A stretch of 64,000 nucleotides of DNA from Halosimplex halophilum (GTDB lineage Archaea > Halobacteriota > Halobacteria > Halobacteriales > Haloarculaceae), in assembly GCF_004698125.1 (NCBI RefSeq), contig NZ_ML214298.1:434001-498000 (forward strand). The letters run 5' to 3'. This document shows, one piece after another, positions 3,394 to 59,680 of this stretch. Position numbers and translations under genes: made by a program. The notes beneath the pieces are model-generated. The model did not search any database, was not told the origin of the DNA, and was given only the letters and a program-made list of their open reading frames with translations. Position 1 is the first letter of the stretch; every line of letters begins with the position of its first letter.

Positions 3394-5376
3394 TCAGTCG
3401 AACTTCTCCAGCAGTTCCACGTAGAAGCCGTCGCGCTCGTCGGCGAGTTTCTCGACGATGAGCTCCGGCGTCGAGCGGGCGAGCACGTCCTTGACCGGCG
3501 AGCGCTCGACGACGAGTTCGCCGTCGACCAGCCCCTTGGCCTCGATGCCGTCGACGGCCAGGTCGGTGCGGGCGGCGTCCCGGATCTCGCGTGCGAGGTG
3601 GGTGACGAAGACGGCGGTGGCGTCGGTAGCGTCGAACGCCTCGAGGATGCCGGCCATGATCTTCGCGCTCGCGCCGGGCTCGGTGATGCTCTCCAGCTCG
3701 TCGACGAGGACGACCACGTCGCCGGCCTCGCCCGACCGGACCGCCTCGACGAGGCTCCCGAACTCCCGGAGCGTGGACTCGAAGGCGCCCGCGTCCAGCG
3801 TCCCCTGGGTCTTGGCGTGGTAGTGCAGCTCCTCGACGTGCTCGACGCGGGCGCGGTCGGCCGGGACGGGCAGGCCCATGTGCGCGAGCGTGACCGTCAG
3901 CGCGACCAGGTCGAGCACGGAGGTCTTCCCGCCGCTGTTGACGCCCGTCAGGAGGGCGACGCCCTCGACCCGGTAGTCGACGGGGTCGACCGCCTCGTAG
4001 GGCACGTCCAGAAGCGGCGAGCGGCCGCCCTCGACGGCGACCCCCTCGCCGCCGATCTCGGGCAGCGTGGCGTCGTACGCCTCGGCGAAGCGGGCGATGG
4101 TCAGTTCCACGTCGAGTTCGAGCGCGGCCTCGGCGAGCCGTTCGGCGTCTTCGCGGGCGTCGGCCAGATCCGTCGCCACCTCGCGCTTGAGGCGGGTCGC
4201 CCGGCGGTCGCGGGCGGTGGTGAGCTCCTCGCGGAGCCGGGAGACGACCTCCTCGTCGCGCTCGACGGGGAAGGTCGGCTGGTCGGGGAACGCCCGGCGG
4301 GCCATGTCGGCGTAGTCGTCCAGCCCGAGGGCGTCGACGAGGTGGTCGCGGGCGTCGTCGACGGCTTCGGCGTACTCGTCGGCGAGTTCGCGCTGGAGCA
4401 GCGAGTCGACGCCGGCGCCCTGCTCGACCAGCGAGAGGAGGTCCGCGCCCTCGATGGTCACGTCTCGCTCCTCGATGGCCTCCCGGAGGCGGTCGTTGGC
4501 GACGCTCTCGGCGGTCGAGACGGCGGCGTCGAGGTCGTCGACGGCGGTCTGTAACTGCTGGAGGCGGTCGTCGTCCGCGACGTTGCCCTCGTCGTCGATG
4601 CGGGCGAGCGCGTCGGCCAGTTCGTCCAGGTCGCAGGGCGGGTCCAGGTCGGCGACGCGGTGGACCTCGATGGCCGCCCGCAGGCGGTTGCGGTTGTGGG
4701 CGAAGAAGGCGAGGGTGCGCTCGGGGACGACGGTCGCGGGGTCGTCCAGCGCGTCGGGTTCGACGCGCACGTCGCCCTCGACCTCGACGCCGGTGAACGC
4801 GTCGTCGAGCGCGACGACGGTGGCGTAGCCCCGCGCGAGGTCGGCCAGCCCGCGGGCGTCGTCGACGATCTCGACGCTGACCTCGGGCAGGGCCTCCTGG
4901 GCGCGGGCGTAGGTCTCGGCGTCGGTCGTGGCGAGACAGCGGTCACGGACCCGGACGCTCGGCGGCGACTCCAGCGGTTCGACCCCGGCCAGCGCGCCGC
5001 GGACCTCGTCGTCGGGGTCCCGCTCCATCGCCCGGGCGGCGAACTCGCGGGCCTCCTCGACCCGCGAACGGGAGGGCGAGGGGTAGAACGTCTCCAGGCG
5101 GCGCTCGGCGTAGCGGGTGACGGCGTGGTCGGCGACGAGATCGAGGGCGTCGCGGTAGATCTCCTGGGCGCGCGAGGTGGCGGCGAACCCGCCGGGGTCG
5201 CCGTGCTCGCGGCGGATGGCGGCGCGGGCGATGCGGGCGGCCCGGCCGTCGCTGATGCCCGGCGCGCGGGCCAGCGCGGCCACGTCCCCGTCGCGCAGCG
5301 CCCGCTCGGGGTCGTCGAGTTCCGCCAGCGCCTCGGCCGTCTTCTCGCCGACCCCAGGGATCGTCTCGATGTCCAT
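3394..5376 (-). CDS. MutS5-like ATPase with N-terminal helix-hairpin-helix
   Basis: A 660-residue protein. The N-terminus (IPGVGEKTAEAL, then APGISDGRAARIA) is a helix-hairpin-helix pair that should bind DNA. The middle is a charged, probably coiled-coil region. The C-terminal half is a MutS-type ABC ATPase with Walker A GVNSGGKTS at about residue 480 and Walker B VVVLVDELES at about 555. The mismatch-recognition domain of MutS1 is absent, which fits the archaeal MutS5/MutS2-like group rather than classical mismatch repair. The minus-strand sequence gggatttttctcc at 5398-5410 is a good TATA box for the ATG at 5376. Confidence 0.85.
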   Translation of the reverse strand: MDIETIPGVGEKTAEALAELDDPERALRDGDVAALARAPGISDGRAARIARAAIRREHGDPGGFAATSRAQEIYRDALDLVADHAVTRYAERRLETFYPSPSRSRVEEAREFAARAMERDPDDEVRGALAGVEPLESPPSVRVRDRCLATTDAETYARAQEALPEVSVEIVDDARGLADLARGYATVVALDDAFTGVEVEGDVRVEPDALDDPATVVPERTLAFFAHNRNRLRAAIEVHRVADLDPPCDLDELADALARIDDEGNVADDDRLQQLQTAVDDLDAAVSTAESVANDRLREAIEERDVTIEGADLLSLVEQGAGVDSLLQRELADEYAEAVDDARDHLVDALGLDDYADMARRAFPDQPTFPVERDEEVVSRLREELTTARDRRATRLKREVATDLADAREDAERLAEAALELDVELTIARFAEAYDATLPEIGGEGVAVEGGRSPLLDVPYEAVDPVDYRVEGVALLTGVNSGGKTSVLDLVALTVTLAHMGLPVPADRARVEHVEELHYHAKTQGTLDAGAFESTLREFGSLVEAVRSGEAGDVVVLVDELESITEPGASAKIMAGILEAFDATDATAVFVTHLAREIRDAARTDLAVDGIEAKGLVDGELVVERSPVKDVLARSTPELIVEKLADERDGFYVELLEKFD

Positions 5377-5442
5377 CTACCCGCCACATTACCACCGGCG
5401 GAGAAAAATCCCGCGCCTGTGTGGGGACGCGCCGGCGGCCCC

Positions 5443-6426
5443 TCACTCGTTCCACGGCCAGTCCTCCGGCGGCGCGAACGGGCCGGCCGAGACGGTGTAG
5501 CGCATCACCGTCGACACGCGCAGCAGTCGCACCACGAGGAGCACGAGCGGGGCGAACACCACCGCGACCGCGGCGCTGATCGCCCACGGCAGGGCCCACC
5601 CGGGGAGCGTCGCCCCGTTCGAGCGGTACAGCAGCGGGACGGCGAGCGCGACGAGCAGCGCCGGGAGGCTCACGTAGATGATCTCCCGCGAGAGCTTCGT
5701 GAGCTCCTGATGGAGCGCGAGCGTCTTGTAGTACTGGCGGGCCACCGAGAGGTGCCCGAGCAGCCTGTCGACCGCGTCGACGTCGTCGGCGACCGGGTCG
5801 GGCAGGTCCGCGCCGGCGGTGACCGCCCGGAGTCGGCGGTGGAACCGCGCGTAGTCCGACCCCGCGGTCAGCGAGATGACCCTGACCGGCTCCATCTCGC
5901 CGGAGACGCGCTCGATCGACTCGGCGTAGCCCGAGAGGTCGCCGGCGAGCGCGGCGAGGTCGTCCCCCGCGTCGGCTCCGGCGGCGGTCGCCCGTCGCGA
6001 GGCGCGCAGCGAGTCGGCCCGGTCGTCGATCGCCTCGCCGATCGCCCCGACGAACTCGGCGGCGTCGACCGGCACCGTCGTCCGGTCGCCCGCCTCGGCG
6101 ACCGCCTCCCGGAGGTCGACGCCCTTCTCGTAGCGCTCGCGCAGCGAGGGCGGCTTGCCGAACGCCTGCGAGGAGACGAGCTGGTTGACCGTCAGCGTCA
6201 GCGTGACGAGCGTGAACACGCCGGCGGTGACGCCGCTCCCGAACACCGTCGGCACGTTGCCGCTCGGCCCGACCGCGAGGACGCCCGCGGCGACGGCGAC
6301 GCGGACGACCGCGAAGACGACGGCGCAGACGACCGCCGCGATCAGCCAGCGGTTCCCGTCGAGAAACAGCCAGTGGCGGAGTCCGTTCCCGCCCGCGTCG
6401 CCGGCGGCGTCGTCGCCCTCACCCAT
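5443..6426 (-). CDS. Four-helix membrane protein, conserved hypothetical
   Basis: A 327-residue protein with two membrane segments near the N-terminus (WLIAAVVCAVVFAVVRVAV and the stretch around GVFTLVTLTLTVNQLV), a central soluble helical region of about 170 residues, and two more segments near the C-terminus. The open frame extends upstream to 6627, but that part is Arg/Pro-rich and looks non-coding, so I place the start at the ATG at 6426 (MGEGDD). I do not recognise the family. The layout resembles bestrophin-like or other four-helix channel proteins, but no signature supports that. Confidence 0.65.
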   Translation of the reverse strand: MGEGDDAAGDAGGNGLRHWLFLDGNRWLIAAVVCAVVFAVVRVAVAAGVLAVGPSGNVPTVFGSGVTAGVFTLVTLTLTVNQLVSSQAFGKPPSLRERYEKGVDLREAVAEAGDRTTVPVDAAEFVGAIGEAIDDRADSLRASRRATAAGADAGDDLAALAGDLSGYAESIERVSGEMEPVRVISLTAGSDYARFHRRLRAVTAGADLPDPVADDVDAVDRLLGHLSVARQYYKTLALHQELTKLSREIIYVSLPALLVALAVPLLYRSNGATLPGWALPWAISAAVAVVFAPLVLLVVRLLRVSTVMRYTVSAGPFAPPEDWPWNE

Positions 6427-53888: not shown

Positions 53889-54890
53889 TCAGACGCTCTC
53901 GGGACCACTCTCGGCCTGTCCGCGCTCGTCGGGGTAGAGCCAGTCCGTCCGGACGAACAGGACGGCGGCGACGGCGAGCCACGGGACGACGCCGACCAGG
54001 CCGACCGGCGTCGGTCCGAACACGGGGTTGGGGACGGCCGTGGCAAAGAGCGTCGCGAGGCCGGCGCTGCCGTTTATCATCGCGTGGCCGACGACCGCCG
54101 GGAAGACGCTCCCGCTCCGGAGCGTGACCCAGCCGAGGAACACGCCGAGTCCGACGGTCGCAACGGTCATCGCCGCCAGGCCGAGCCACGGCGCGCCCGT
54201 ATACGCCAGGCCGTAGTTGTACCCCATCGCGATGACCGGCCAGTGCCAGACGCCCCAGACGACGCCGTGGGTGACCAGCGCCCGCCGCCAGCCCAGCGGC
54301 GCGAGCTTCGGCAGCAGGTACGCGCGCCAGCCGAACTCCTCGCCGAACGTGGCGACGCTGTTCAGCAGGGGCGCGGCCACGAGCGCCTGGACGAACTGGA
54401 CGGCGAGAAACGCCGTCGGCGAGAGGGGGATCTCCTGGCCCGTCTCCGCCTCGACCGTCGCGAGCAGGTCCGCGACCGCCGCCGTCCCGCCGAACAGGTC
54501 CGGATACACCAGGAAGTACAGCCCCGCACCGGCGAGGATCAGGACGAGGGGACCGACCCACCCGACGAGCCACGGGCGCGAGCGCGTCCGCACGCGGAGG
54601 TGCATCTCGCCGCGGTCGAACCCCTCGTCGGTCAGCCACCGGGCCGCGACGTGACCGATGGCCGGTCCCCACATGTAGGGGCCGGCGAGCAGGACCAGCC
54701 ACAGCGGGATCCCCAGCGCCAGCGTCGGCCCCGCACCGACGCCGCCCAGCCCGTAGATAACGGCCGCCGTCGCCCACGACACCGCGAACGTGACGCCGAG
54801 GAAGACCGCGACCCGGCGGCGCTGCAGCCGTTCCCCCGTTGCCGGTCGGTCCCCCCACTCGCCCCCCGGTCGCTCGGATCCGGTGTGCAT
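53889..54890 (-). CDS. CPBP family intramembrane metalloprotease
   Basis: A 333-residue membrane protein with about eight helices. The CPBP (Abi/Rce1) motifs are visible: FGEEFGWRAYLLP (EExxxR), HGVVWGVWHWP and GHAMINGS. Members cleave prenylated proteins or bacteriocin precursors, or confer bacteriocin immunity; the substrate here is unknown. The minus-strand box agaatattcac (about 54914-54924) supports the ATG at 54890. It lies 1.6 kb from the halocin-like cluster, with three intervening starts. Confidence 0.88.
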   Translation of the reverse strand: MHTGSERPGGEWGDRPATGERLQRRRVAVFLGVTFAVSWATAAVIYGLGGVGAGPTLALGIPLWLVLLAGPYMWGPAIGHVAARWLTDEGFDRGEMHLRVRTRSRPWLVGWVGPLVLILAGAGLYFLVYPDLFGGTAAVADLLATVEAETGQEIPLSPTAFLAVQFVQALVAAPLLNSVATFGEEFGWRAYLLPKLAPLGWRRALVTHGVVWGVWHWPVIAMGYNYGLAYTGAPWLGLAAMTVATVGLGVFLGWVTLRSGSVFPAVVGHAMINGSAGLATLFATAVPNPVFGPTPVGLVGVVPWLAVAAVLFVRTDWLYPDERGQAESGPESV

Positions 54891-55705: not shown

Positions 55706-56332
55706 ATGGACTTCGCGGCCGCCCGCGAGCGGTTAGTCGAGCGACTCGACGACCGCGGCCGGATCGACGACGAGCGCGTCCGCGAGGCGATGGCGACCGT
55801 CCCCCGTCACGAGTTCGTCCCCGAAGACCGTCGCGAGGACGCCTACCGCGACACCCCGCTGCCCATCGGCGAGGGCCAGACCATCAGCGCCCCGCACATG
55901 GTCGCGGTCATGGCCGACCTGCTCGACCTCTCGGCGGGCGACGACGTGCTGGAGGTCGGCACCGGCTGTGGCTACCACGCCGCCGTCACCGCCGAAGTCG
56001 TCGGCGCCGAGCACGTCTACTCCGTCGAGTACCACGACTCGCTGGCCGAGGAGGCCCGCGAGCGACTGGACCGCCTCGGCTACGGCGCGGTGTCGGTCCG
56101 CGCGGGCGACGGCAAGGAGGGGTGGGCCGAGCACGCCCCCTACGACCGCGCGTACCTGACCTGCGCCGCCCCCGAGTTCCCCGAGCCCGTCGTCGAGCAG
56201 GTCCGCCCCGGCGGGTACGTGCTCGCGCCGATCGGCCGCCGCCAGCAGACGCTCGTCCGCGCCCGCCGGCGCGCCGACGGGTCGCTGGACCGGGACGAGT
56301 ACGGCGGCGTCCGGTTCGTCGAGCTGCAGTAG
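55706..56332 (+). CDS. pcm: Protein-L-isoaspartate O-methyltransferase
   Basis: A 208-residue SAM-dependent methyltransferase. GQTISAPHMVAVM holds the catalytic Ser/Thr region, LEVGTGCGYHAAV is the SAM-binding motif I, and RAYLTCAAPEFP is motif II. It repairs isoaspartyl damage in aged proteins. In relatives I recall the two haloarchaeal PCMT genes being adjacent; here the second is 2.6 kb away, with the halocin-like cluster in between. Confidence 0.92.
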   Translation: MDFAAARERLVERLDDRGRIDDERVREAMATVPRHEFVPEDRREDAYRDTPLPIGEGQTISAPHMVAVMADLLDLSAGDDVLEVGTGCGYHAAVTAEVVGAEHVYSVEYHDSLAEEARERLDRLGYGAVSVRAGDGKEGWAEHAPYDRAYLTCAAPEFPEPVVEQVRPGGYVLAPIGRRQQTLVRARRRADGSLDRDEYGGVRFVELQ

Positions 56333-56417
56333 CCCGGCGTTTCTTCGGCGACGGTTTTCGACCGCCGACGAGCGCGTCACGCTCGACCCGACCCCCGTTC
56401 GTATCTCCCAGTAGTGT

Positions 56418-56427
56418 ATTCTAGAAT
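56418..56427. promoter_or_regulatory. AT-rich promoter region with palindrome
   Basis: ATTCTAGAAT is a perfect 10-bp palindrome within an AT-rich stretch (56411-56483) very unlike the surrounding GC-rich DNA. A TATA-like acaattatg at 56445-56453 lies about 35 bp before the peptide gene's ATG at 56484. The palindrome lies just upstream of this box and could bind an activator or repressor. Confidence 0.5.
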
Positions 56428-56483
56428 AAATTAGGATTGACGAAACAATTATGTAGCAACCAAATGTAACCGAAACTGGAGTT

Positions 56484-56798
56484 ATGGAGTACAAAACCGC
56501 AGGCCGATTCCTGGCATCGCTGGTAGTACTGTCGATGATCGCGACCAGTTTCACGGCGGGGACCGTCGCCGCCGACACGACGGCGGCGGCGGACGCGTCC
56601 GTCAGCGGCGCGGAGGGCGCGACTGCGGAGTTCGGGTCCATCCTCGTCGGCGAGGCGTGTGAGAAGGCCGACTCCTCACAGGCGGAACTCGCCTGTCAGG
56701 TCCTGCTCGGCGCGTCCACGGTCACGAAGTACACGACGCTCGCCAGTCTGGTCGGTGGTCCGTACGGGTGGGCCGCCTCCATCCTGATCGGACTCTGA
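56484..56798 (+). CDS. Small secreted hydrophobic peptide, candidate halocin precursor
   Basis: A 104-residue precursor. Residues 1-32 are a Sec-type signal peptide (GRFLASLVVLSMIATSFTAG, cleavage probably after AGTVAA). The rest begins with an Ala/Thr/Glu-rich propeptide-like stretch and ends with about 50 hydrophobic, Gly/Ala/Ser-rich residues, with cysteines in GEACEKAD and LACQVLL and a final segment LVGGPYGWAASILIGL. Small size, secretion, a hydrophobic helical end and two cysteines fit a bacteriocin-like peptide. It is followed by small membrane proteins, including a DUF95/SpoIIM protein. Activity is inferred, not shown. Confidence 0.6.
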   Translation: MEYKTAGRFLASLVVLSMIATSFTAGTVAADTTAAADASVSGAEGATAEFGSILVGEACEKADSSQAELACQVLLGASTVTKYTTLASLVGGPYGWAASILIGL

Positions 56799-56844
56799 CC
56801 GCCGGGCGACCCACACTTTTTTATCCGTCACACGACAACCGATA

Positions 56845-57285
56845 ATGACGTTAAACCAATCAGAAAAACATATGAATTCGAAAGAGACAGTCCGCTCGTC
56901 GTCGGATCCGGACAACGCGCGCGGTGACCTGGTACAGTTGCTCGTCGTCGTCGTGCTCGCGACGCTACCGCTCGACGCGCTCGGGCTCTCCGTCGCGGGC
57001 GTCCTCCCCGAGAGCGTGTCGCTGCTCGCGCTGGAGCCGGTCTGGGCCGGCGTCGTCGCGGTGCTGGGCCTCGCCTTCGGGGCCGTCGTCGCCCACAACC
57101 ACAGCCTCCCGGCCGAAAACCAGCGCGCGGGCCGAGTCGCGGCCGCCGGCATCGCGCTGGCCGTTCCGGCGCTGGCCGCGAACGTGTTGCTCGCCGCCAA
57201 CGGATACCTGTTCGCGTACGTCCTGTGCAACGGCACCGGCTACGGGGTCGGGTACCTGTACCACCAGTACGGTCCCGGAGCCTAG
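56845..57285 (+). CDS. Small membrane protein, possible immunity protein
   Basis: A 146-residue protein with a polar N-terminus encoded by unusually AT-rich codons and about four hydrophobic helices (VQLLVVVVLATLPLDALGLS and AAGIALAVPALAANVLLAAN are clear). Small hydrophobic proteins beside a bacteriocin gene commonly give producer immunity, but no similarity supports that here. Its own promoter is likely: acttttttatcc (56812-56823) sits about 27 bp upstream, between this gene and the peptide gene. Confidence 0.55.
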   Translation: MTLNQSEKHMNSKETVRSSSDPDNARGDLVQLLVVVVLATLPLDALGLSVAGVLPESVSLLALEPVWAGVVAVLGLAFGAVVAHNHSLPAENQRAGRVAAAGIALAVPALAANVLLAANGYLFAYVLCNGTGYGVGYLYHQYGPGA

Positions 57286-57299
57286 CCCGGTATCAGCGG

Positions 57300-57914
57300 A
57301 TGACGGTCACTGACGGTCCGGTCGTCGCGGGGGCGCTGACGCGTCGGTTCGCCGTGCTCCGGTCGGCGGTCCGAGCCAACGGACGGCTGATCGGCGCCGC
57401 GGCGGCCGTCTATCTGTCCGGTGCGGTGCTGGGGCTGGGCGTCGGCTCGACGCTCGACTACGCGCGACTGGCACGGGCCAGCGGCGGCACCGCGGTCGCC
57501 GGGGCCGGAGCGGGCGCTTCCTTCGCCGACCTGCTGGCGATCAACCTCGCAGTGGCCGTCGCGCTGCTCGCCGGCACCGTGACGTTCGGCACCGTGCCGC
57601 TCGTGTTACTGTTCTCCAACGGGGTGTTCCACTTCTACTTCGTCGGGCTGGTCCCGGCCGGCCCCCTCGAGGTCGCCGCGTTGCTGGTCCCACACGGGCT
57701 GTTCGAACTCCCCGCCCTGTGGATCGCGGGGGCGGCGGGGTTCCGGCTCCCCGTCAACTTCCTGTCGTACCTGCGCGAGCGGCGCGACACCGTGGTCGAC
57801 CGGTCCGAACTGCGCGAACTCGGCGTGCTCGCGGCGCTCGCGCTCTCGCTGATCGTCGTCGGCGCGGTCGTCGAAGCCACGGTCACGACCTGGCTGGCGG
57901 GTCACGTCCTGTGA
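57300..57914 (+). CDS. SpoIIM/DUF95 family membrane protein
   Basis: A 204-residue protein with about five helices and the family signature VPHGLFELPALWIAGAAGFR near residue 125. DUF95 proteins are regular members of circular bacteriocin clusters in Bacillota, where they act in maturation, export or immunity; others occur beside ABC or RDD genes. It begins 15 bp after the preceding membrane protein, so they are cotranscribed. No ATPase partner is seen nearby, unlike in typical circular bacteriocin clusters. Confidence 0.82.
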   Translation: MTVTDGPVVAGALTRRFAVLRSAVRANGRLIGAAAAVYLSGAVLGLGVGSTLDYARLARASGGTAVAGAGAGASFADLLAINLAVAVALLAGTVTFGTVPLVLLFSNGVFHFYFVGLVPAGPLEVAALLVPHGLFELPALWIAGAAGFRLPVNFLSYLRERRDTVVDRSELRELGVLAALALSLIVVGAVVEATVTTWLAGHVL

Positions 57915-57983
57915 CTCGCTGTCGACCGCGTCCGGCGGCACCCGCGCGGAGGCCCGGACCCGCGGCGCGGGGTCGCGGCGGCG

Positions 57984-58640
57984 TCAGAGTCCGAGCAGCC
58001 GGGCGTTGAACACGAGGACCGTCAGGAGGACGCTACAGAGCGTCGGGACCGCCGCGATCGCCGCCGCCGTCCGGAGCTCGATGTCGTAGGTGTGTTTGAC
58101 CGCGAACGCCCAGATGAACCCCCGCCAGAGCAGGATCACCGTCGTGACGGCGACGGTCATCCGCATCGCGGTCGCGCCCTGCAGCGACGCCGCCAGCACG
58201 CTCGCGTCCAGCTCCGACGGCTCCGTCCCGGCGAAGGCGGTTCGCACCGTGAGAAACGTGGCGACCGCCTTGTTGATCCCGGCCAGCACGTCCGGGAGGA
58301 ACCCGCATCCGACGAACAGACTGAGCCGTCTGAACGACCCCTCCGGAACGGACAGCATCGACCCCTCGGTGATCCCCATGGCGAGGAGGTGGATCACGAC
58401 GGCGTACACGAACCAGAACGCGAACACCGAGAGGACGTTCGCGAGGAGCGTGACCACCCCTCCGGTCAGCAACAGCGTCGTCGCCGCTCCGGGCACGATC
58501 TGCAGCTGGTAGTAGAGGAGCACGATCCCCGACAGGGAACTGGCCACGCCCGCCAGCGCGACGATCCCGAGCACGTACCGCACGCTCAGGCCGCTCTTTC
58601 CCCGTTCGTAGAACCCGTTCGGATCGCTCACGACCGACAC
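57984..58640 (-). CDS. Yip1-like membrane protein
   Basis: A 218-residue protein with about five helices and a FWFVYAVVIHLLAMGITEGS segment that resembles the YIP1 membrane domain. It starts at GTG (58640), or at another GTG at 58631 (MSDPNGFYERGKSG). The only strong promoter upstream is minus-strand gttttttatcc at about 58820-58830, implying a leader of roughly 160 nt. It runs convergent to the SpoIIM gene and may belong to the same cluster. Function unknown. Confidence 0.65.
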   Translation of the reverse strand: MSVVSDPNGFYERGKSGLSVRYVLGIVALAGVASSLSGIVLLYYQLQIVPGAATTLLLTGGVVTLLANVLSVFAFWFVYAVVIHLLAMGITEGSMLSVPEGSFRRLSLFVGCGFLPDVLAGINKAVATFLTVRTAFAGTEPSELDASVLAASLQGATAMRMTVAVTTVILLWRGFIWAFAVKHTYDIELRTAAAIAAVPTLCSVLLTVLVFNARLLGL

Positions 58641-58933
58641 GGTCGGTCCCCCCCGTTCGACGGCGTGCGCTGTCTTCGAACGTCGCCGCCCCCGTCGAGT
58701 GCGGCCGTCGGTTCGTCCGGGCGACCCGGCGGCCTCGGGACCGGACCGCGGGTCGCTCGACGCTGTCGAACCCCTGTCGTTCCGTCGACCATGTGTCCGG
58801 CCGAATGATATTCCTCAAAGGATAAAAAACTAACAGTAACTGGGGCGGTCCGACCGAGCCCGTCCCTCGCGCACACGGGGCGGCAGGGACCGGAGCCGCG
58901 CCATTCATTACCGTCGAGGGCGGACGGGCGGGC

Positions 58934-59680
58934 ATGGATCCGGCGGTGGTGCGCGACGATATGGTCGACAGCCTGGAACACGAGAGCAAGGGCTGTCTCC
59001 GCAGCGAGGCCCTCTCCGTCGCGATGCGCGAGGTGCCCCGCGAGGCGTTCGTCGCGGAGGACCGCGGCGCCTACGCCGACCGACCGTTCGAGCGGCTGGG
59101 GACGCGCGTGCTCGCGCCGAGCACCGTCGCGCGGCTGCTCGAAGCGCTCGACGTCCGCGAGGGCGACTCGGTCCTCGTCGTCGGCGCGGGCGTCGGCTAC
59201 ACCGCCGCGGTCGTCGCGGAACTGGCCGGCGCCGAACGCGTCCACGCCATCGACATCACGCGCCGGCTGGTGGTCGAGGCCAGGGAGAACCTCGCCGAGG
59301 CGGGCTACGAGGGCGTGCTCGTCGACCGCCGCGACGGCGCCGACGGGCTCCCCGAGTACGCGCCGTTCGACCGCATCCTGCTGGAGGCGGCGGCGGTCAG
59401 CCCGCCCGCGGCGCTGGTCGACCAGCTCGCCGAAGGCGGCCGGCTGGTCATGCCCCACGGCGCCGGCGAGCAGCACCTCGCGGTCGTCGAGGGCGGCGAG
59501 GTGGTCGAGCGGCTCGGCGGCGTCGCCTTCCGGCCGATGCTCGTCGAGGGCGAGCAGGCCGACACGGTCGAGCGCAACCGCACTCGCCGCGAGGACCGCG
59601 AGTTCGCCCGCCGCAACGCCGAGGGCCGGACCGGCTGGGAACAGGAGTGGATCGACTGGGACGACGCGGTCGGGCGCTGA
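58934..59680 (+). CDS. Divergent protein-L-isoaspartate methyltransferase paralogue
   Basis: A 248-residue SAM-dependent methyltransferase related to the pcm product. Motif I is altered to LVVGAGVGYTAAV, and the catalytic TISAPHMV segment is replaced by VLAPSTVARL, lacking the usual Ser/Thr-xx-Pro-His. A C-terminal extension of about 40 charged residues ends in EWIDWDDAVGR. It may methylate another target or have lost the isoaspartyl activity. Haloarchaeal genomes usually carry such a pair. Confidence 0.8.
   Translation: MDPAVVRDDMVDSLEHESKGCLRSEALSVAMREVPREAFVAEDRGAYADRPFERLGTRVLAPSTVARLLEALDVREGDSVLVVGAGVGYTAAVVAELAGAERVHAIDITRRLVVEARENLAEAGYEGVLVDRRDGADGLPEYAPFDRILLEAAAVSPPAALVDQLAEGGRLVMPHGAGEQHLAVVEGGEVVERLGGVAFRPMLVEGEQADTVERNRTRREDREFARRNAEGRTGWEQEWIDWDDAVGR

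Follow-up and report, generated by a model that had tools for sequence, protein, structure and literature searches.

A candidate archaeal bacteriocin cassette with SpoIIM and Yip1-like genes, resembling circular-bacteriocin clusters, in Halosimplex halophilum

According to one paper, the archaeocins described up to then comprised only halocins and sulfolobicins (PMC10105419). A full-text literature search for circular-bacteriocin-like clusters in Archaea returned no description of any. Archaeal antimicrobial peptides were treated earlier chiefly by Makarova et al. (mBio, 2019), whose paper may already list some of the loci considered here.

In Bacteria, a SpoIIM protein is encoded in all circular-bacteriocin clusters (PMC6131525), and SpoIIM has been called class-defining for circular bacteriocins (PMC11580447, PMC13289728). 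Yip1 proteins occur commonly there as well, above all alongside a three-gene ABC set (PMC8659200), and in one cluster of B. cereus SpoIIM and Yip1 are found together (PMC8534725). Small cationic immunity proteins also typify the class (PMC6131525), and, as summarised there, cells that lose the DUF95 protein LcyD retain the mature circular peptide (Mu et al., 2014, cited in PMC6131525).

The locus described here shares with the circular-bacteriocin clusters of Bacillota (enterocin AS-48, leucocyclicin Q, cerecyclin) a hydrophobic precursor with a leader, a SpoIIM/DUF95 protein, a small hydrophobic membrane protein, and the frequent presence of Yip1. Unlike those clusters, it has no ABC ATPase in the cassette, it and its relatives have archaeal hosts, and cyclisation is presumed by analogy. 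Leaderless bacteriocin clusters with Yip1, such as that of bawcin, also combine a small membrane-active peptide, a small multi-transmembrane (TM) protein and Yip1 (PMC10707071), but differ in having an ABC transporter, no leader peptide and no SpoIIM among the listed genes. Halocins are likewise secreted peptide antimicrobials of haloarchaea; they differ in that no halocin model matches the precursor described below, a distinction drawn from library models rather than from cluster layouts.

A cassette inserted between two PCMT genes

The window is the whole stretch of DNA that was analysed, 64,000 nucleotides of the H. halophilum genome; it is haloarchaeal in character, with a G+C content of about 71%. 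The features of the cassette are as follows, with TM counts derived from our own hydropathy rule.

56332..58895 (no strand): insert of 2,564 bp that separates two PCMT paralogues; four congeners lack it at this site
56441..56453, plus: cgaaacaattatg, a possible BRE/TATA-like element of the precursor gene, proposed from sequence only
56484..56798, plus: precursor gene, 104 aa, with a signal-like leader (about residues 1-30) and a hydrophobic C-terminal region
56757..56768, plus: codons of a GPxG motif (G92-P93-Y94-G95) near the precursor C-terminus, common to seven other cassette precursors
56817..56824, plus: T-run TTTTTTAT, which from its sequence may be a TATA box of the second gene or a terminator of the first
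56845..57285, plus: protein of 146 aa and pI 5.7, predicted to have four TM segments and a candidate for immunity
57300..57914, plus: SpoIIM/DUF95 membrane protein, 204 aa (PF01944, E 4.6e-19)
57984..58640, minus: Yip1-like five-TM membrane protein, 218 aa, convergent (PF04893)

The flanking PCMT genes lie at 55706-56332 and 58934-59680. The second PCMT protein served as the query against seven other genomes of the genus. Four of these (G089, G092, G093, and G094) keep both PCMT genes and have no insert at this site; in them, the counterparts of window position 56331 and of a position at about 58890-58896 align 8 to 63 bp apart, and the junction in G093 was confirmed by aligning a wider stretch. 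In two others (G090 and G091) the alignment spans a point about 500 bp earlier, which would fit loss of the first PCMT gene, and the last (G095) is represented by a short contig with a longer spacer. None of the compared genomes of the genus other than that of the window contains 56332-58895. Because the spacers of the four congeners are short, gain of the insert in the window genome is favoured over its loss elsewhere, a preference that this comparison alone does not settle. Neither terminal inverted repeats nor a target duplication beyond 7-mers was found at the insert ends. The G+C content at third codon positions is 0.84-0.93 in the four cassette genes, compared with 0.95-0.96 in the PCMT genes. 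A preliminary description of this DNA had correctly placed the unit between PCMT paralogues, but the unit is larger than it had proposed, with limits of 56332-58895 provided by the congener comparison and with the Yip1-like gene inside them. Outside the insert, a six-TM protein that by eye resembles a CPBP-type intramembrane protease is encoded at 53889-54890 on the minus strand, and this gene is also present in the aligned stretch of G093.

All four reading frames of the cassette were located where the preliminary description had placed them, and the AT-rich stretch that it had noted at 56411-56483 is real in the sequence. The first three genes are co-directional, with gaps of 46 and 14 bases. 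The last 58 residues of the precursor are hydrophobic and contain two cysteines (C59 and C71), as had been proposed, whereas their characterisation as Gly/Ala-rich is only moderately true (28% Gly+Ala). The precursor would comprise a leader and a hydrophobic core of about 58-70 residues; its start yields a weak match to the haloarchaeal signal model TIGR04207 (16.9 bits, below the cut-off of 24.6).

No homolog of this precursor was detected in 146 genomes of its own family, in a sample of 170 genomes of its order (weak matches only, E 0.003 and worse), or among the GTDB contigs, viral contigs, and plasmids searched, and comparison to Pfam, NCBIfam, and PDB sequences gave no convincing match. 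Neither a circular-bacteriocin profile nor a halocin family model in Pfam or NCBIfam matched it, and the same was true of the precursors of the other cassettes described below, such that the earlier label of 'halocin-like' is not supported by the libraries scanned. A single-sequence structure model (mean pLDDT 52) was too poor for a fold search. The window precursor is placed in the class by its layout, its composition, and the GPxG motif rather than by homology.

Among the partner proteins, the domain match upholds the SpoIIM/DUF95 assignment made earlier; the structure model of this protein (pLDDT 45) was also too poor for a fold search, and the SpoIIM alignment contained no stretch conserved enough to build a pattern for scanning. 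The proposal of a convergent Yip1-like protein is likewise borne out, with a match to PF04893 (E 4.2e-5) that falls below the gathering score. A far stronger match of this protein to our profile A2 (E 9e-65) carries the qualification that A2 includes that very protein; profiles A1, A2, and A5 all include window proteins. One homolog of the 146-aa protein was found elsewhere (43% identity), which stands alone in G099 (contig C45, locus L039, 5070-5468, minus strand) with neither SpoIIM nor a precursor, and which sits in DNA of about 45-52% G+C beside a region of 61-66%. This homolog is a candidate immunity-only gene.

No ABC ATPase is encoded within the insert. Elsewhere in the window genome, an operon-like run (L105, 1170-5643; G000 contig 1, about 304.7-309.1 kb) encodes a related Yip1 protein (PF04893, E 4.5e-24), followed by a 600-aa CARDB protein, an ABC ATPase, and a permease-like protein. 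It contains no precursor, and a counterpart (L106) is found in G093. That this operon serves the window cassette is a guess.

Recurrence of the layout in other archaea

SpoIIM relatives were gathered from the family, and their neighborhoods were read by listing open reading frames. SpoIIM is present in 246 of 382 genomes at E 1e-6, and many of the genes stand alone. A recurrent layout emerged in three haloarchaeal families, consisting of a small secreted precursor, a small multi-TM protein, SpoIIM, and usually a Yip1-like gene (L040, L041, L042, L043, L044 (twice), L048, L049, L055, L089, L090, and L108). In all of these except L108, the neighbors of SpoIIM include a Yip1-like gene and a short reading frame whose product begins hydrophobic and ends in a hydrophobic, mostly Gly/Ala-rich region. 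L108, from another family, encodes a precursor, a 64-aa two-TM protein, and SpoIIM, and no Yip1-like gene was seen close by; the precursor shares 68% identity with that of L049, a cassette carried by the congener G093, and the 64-aa protein also shows a resemblance by eye. The precursors of L041 and L090 are 50% identical and conserve two cysteines. SpoIIM-Yip1 pairs with no obvious precursor were also identified (L045, L091, L092, and L093). The best-scoring SpoIIM and Yip1 genes guided the choice of loci, and counting these loci therefore does not yield a frequency.

When a fixed precursor rule was applied, a precursor-like reading frame was found upstream of SpoIIM in 11 of 18 loci with a Yip1-like gene within 3 kb of SpoIIM, compared with 1 of 17 loci that lacked such linkage (Fisher p 9e-4, a value that is only descriptive because the rule was shaped on the first loci seen). 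The single unlinked locus with such a reading frame was L108, and L055, a cassette by eye, fails the rule. The cassette of L089 (in G213) lies between two genes that by eye resemble those for ATP synthase subunits, and the same neighborhood in G114 (L107) contains only a Yip1-like gene. Beside the cassette of L042 there is a second SpoIIM gene (4935-5752), preceded by an 81-aa three-TM reading frame, with no precursor seen.

A sample of the phylum pointed to family f21, which we take to be the Archaeoglobaceae, where genomes encode several high-scoring SpoIIM genes each. In about 20 loci of this family the layout is repeatedly a Yip1-like gene, a precursor, a small multi-TM protein, and SpoIIM. 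The small TM proteins of these loci have a pI of 8.8-10.4, in which they resemble the small cationic immunity proteins of circular bacteriocins (PMC6131525), compared with 5.7 in the window. A profile of 13 f21 precursors (A7) was searched in 28 f21 genomes, and 23 of its 28 matches sit 225-794 bp upstream of a SpoIIM match on the same strand; excluding the 13 that are the profile's own rows, the figure is 10 of 15 independent matches. The preliminary description had suggested a search for precursor homologs adjacent to DUF95, and in this family such synteny was indeed found. The five remaining matches are in G544 (contig 1, at 130,973 and 452,027), G520 (contig 6, at 69,625), G475 (at 1,688,670), and G587 (near a contig end); those in G544 and G520 have no listed SpoIIM nearby.

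A variant of the layout is found on pMETHO01, a plasmid of the methanogen Methanomethylovorans hollandica (METHO_RS12245-12290). Like the window cassette, it encodes SpoIIM (matching that of the window with a tblastn E of 3e-11) and YIP1, together with an 80-aa two-TM reading frame, a regulator, and two near-identical 66-aa hydrophobic peptides that are listed as hypothetical proteins. We count it as a variant because the peptides have no long leader, and it further differs from the window in having an ABC ATPase and permease near YIP1. The gene order there resembles that of the ABC operon found elsewhere in the window genome.

Leaders, cores, and the SpoIIM phylogeny

Among ten f21 precursors, mean pairwise identity is 60% over the first 30 positions and 22% over the remainder, a contrast that comes from one family and hinges on an alignment whose core part is uncertain. 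The partner SpoIIMs of these precursors have a mean pairwise identity of 51%. To compare cores, the last 58 residues were aligned locally and the scores set against those of shuffled sequences. The cores of L049 and L108 scored z 11.2 and 10.4, respectively, against an f21 precursor (L138b) with a different leader, indicating from these alignments that certain cores are shared by different clades although the leaders in front of them differ. The best scores of the window core (z 4.2 with L136a and 4.1 with L142b) are only suggestive because several hundred pairs were compared.

A C-terminal GPxG motif is present in 8 of 32 precursors, including that of the window, when 0.86 would be expected, and none of 2,000 shuffles reached this count. 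The exact significance is not reliable, since the motif was noticed before it was tested and since L041 and L090 are related. Two core cysteines were found in the window, L041, and L090, while most cores have none, and disulfide maturation, which had been suggested from the window alone, is therefore not general. Net charge is zero or below in 28 of the 32 cores, and in this the mostly neutral or acidic archaeal cores are unlike bacterial circular bacteriocins, which are usually cationic.

In a phylogenetic reconstruction of SpoIIM with 56 rows, the 20 rows from f21 grouped together (support 85/93). Of the 14 cassette rows from elsewhere, 11, including those of the window and M. hollandica, sided with f21 on a weak branch (67/57), and L049, L108, and L089 grouped with solitary SpoIIMs. 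The labels on the tree require 5 changes, compared with a mean of 28.5 when shuffled. This suggests that cassette SpoIIMs are clustered rather than forming one proven clade.

Proposed function and alternative explanations

Given that SpoIIM has been called class-defining for circular bacteriocins and that Yip1 recurs in their clusters, the window insert is probably an archaeal bacteriocin cassette, acquired horizontally and functioning in the manner of the bacterial circular (SpoIIM-type) clusters. The 104-aa precursor would be inserted into the membrane or exported through its signal-like leader, and removal of the leader would release a hydrophobic C-terminal core of roughly 58-70 residues, which could plausibly be closed head to tail. 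By analogy, SpoIIM and perhaps the Yip1-like protein would carry out maturation and export in the membrane. The producer may be protected by the 146-aa four-TM protein, possibly aided by Yip1, and the mature peptide would be expected to kill related strains. The preliminary description had proposed a secreted-peptide system related to SpoIIM/DUF95 clusters; synteny, the divergence of leader and core in f21, and the Yip1-like gene speak for this relation, with secretion and activity as its conjectural part. It had also raised two objections. The first, that no ABC ATPase is nearby, stands for the cassette itself but is weakened by the ABC operon elsewhere in the genome. The second, the classical signal peptide, is weakened as well, since a signal-like leader is not unusual for the class, that of AS-48 being an example.

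It is unlikely that the cassette instead makes a secreted signalling peptide of pheromone or quorum type, with sensor and transport proteins, and is not antimicrobial. A small, processed-looking peptide encoded with membrane proteins would fit such a role, as would the helix-turn-helix regulators beside some cassettes (L040, L042, L089, and pMETHO01). Yet known peptide pheromones are unlike the very hydrophobic 58-residue cores, several different cassettes can occur in a single genome (G005, G475, G532, and G520), and the solitary homolog of the small TM gene fits immunity better. SpoIIM, moreover, marks bacteriocin clusters (PMC11580447).

We consider it rather improbable that the locus is a cell-envelope or membrane-homeostasis operon in which SpoIIM and Yip1 are housekeeping proteins and the small protein is structural. 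SpoIIM is widespread without precursors, and since SpoIIM-Yip1 pairs that lack a precursor exist, the two proteins may have another membrane role. However, most cassette SpoIIMs are separated from solitary or paired ones in the tree, if with weak support and exceptions, and a patchy distribution, presence or absence at one site between congeners, and hypervariable cores are a poor fit to housekeeping. An intracellular toxin-immunity or lysis module, with a holin-like peptide in the producer membrane controlled by neighboring membrane proteins, would agree with the hydrophobic Gly-rich helices and with a compact unit that is present or absent between congeners, but is also improbable given that signal-like leaders are conserved separately from cores, that no relative was found among the viral contigs scanned, and that SpoIIM and Yip1 recur, being otherwise known together from bacteriocin clusters (PMC8534725, PMC8659200).

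More tentatively, the bacteriocin reading may extend to a whole class of ribosomal bacteriocins of SpoIIM/Yip1 type that is widespread in Archaea and possibly circular. Its members would be borne on mobile and hypervariable cassettes, in Archaeoglobaceae and a methanogen as well as in Halobacteria, and would be matured and exported without a cassette-borne ABC transporter. If so, genes now annotated as hypothetical or as 'sporulation protein M' would become a testable class of archaeal bacteriocins, and the compact, ABC-free cassette would allow the part of SpoIIM in maturation and export, which reviews call unresolved, to be addressed.

Plasmids provided two minor observations. On pMETHO01, a gene annotated as a viperin family antiviral radical SAM protein (L132, 18049-18885) lies about 2 kb past the ABC permease, and a SpoIIM match was also found on a small Staphylococcus plasmid.
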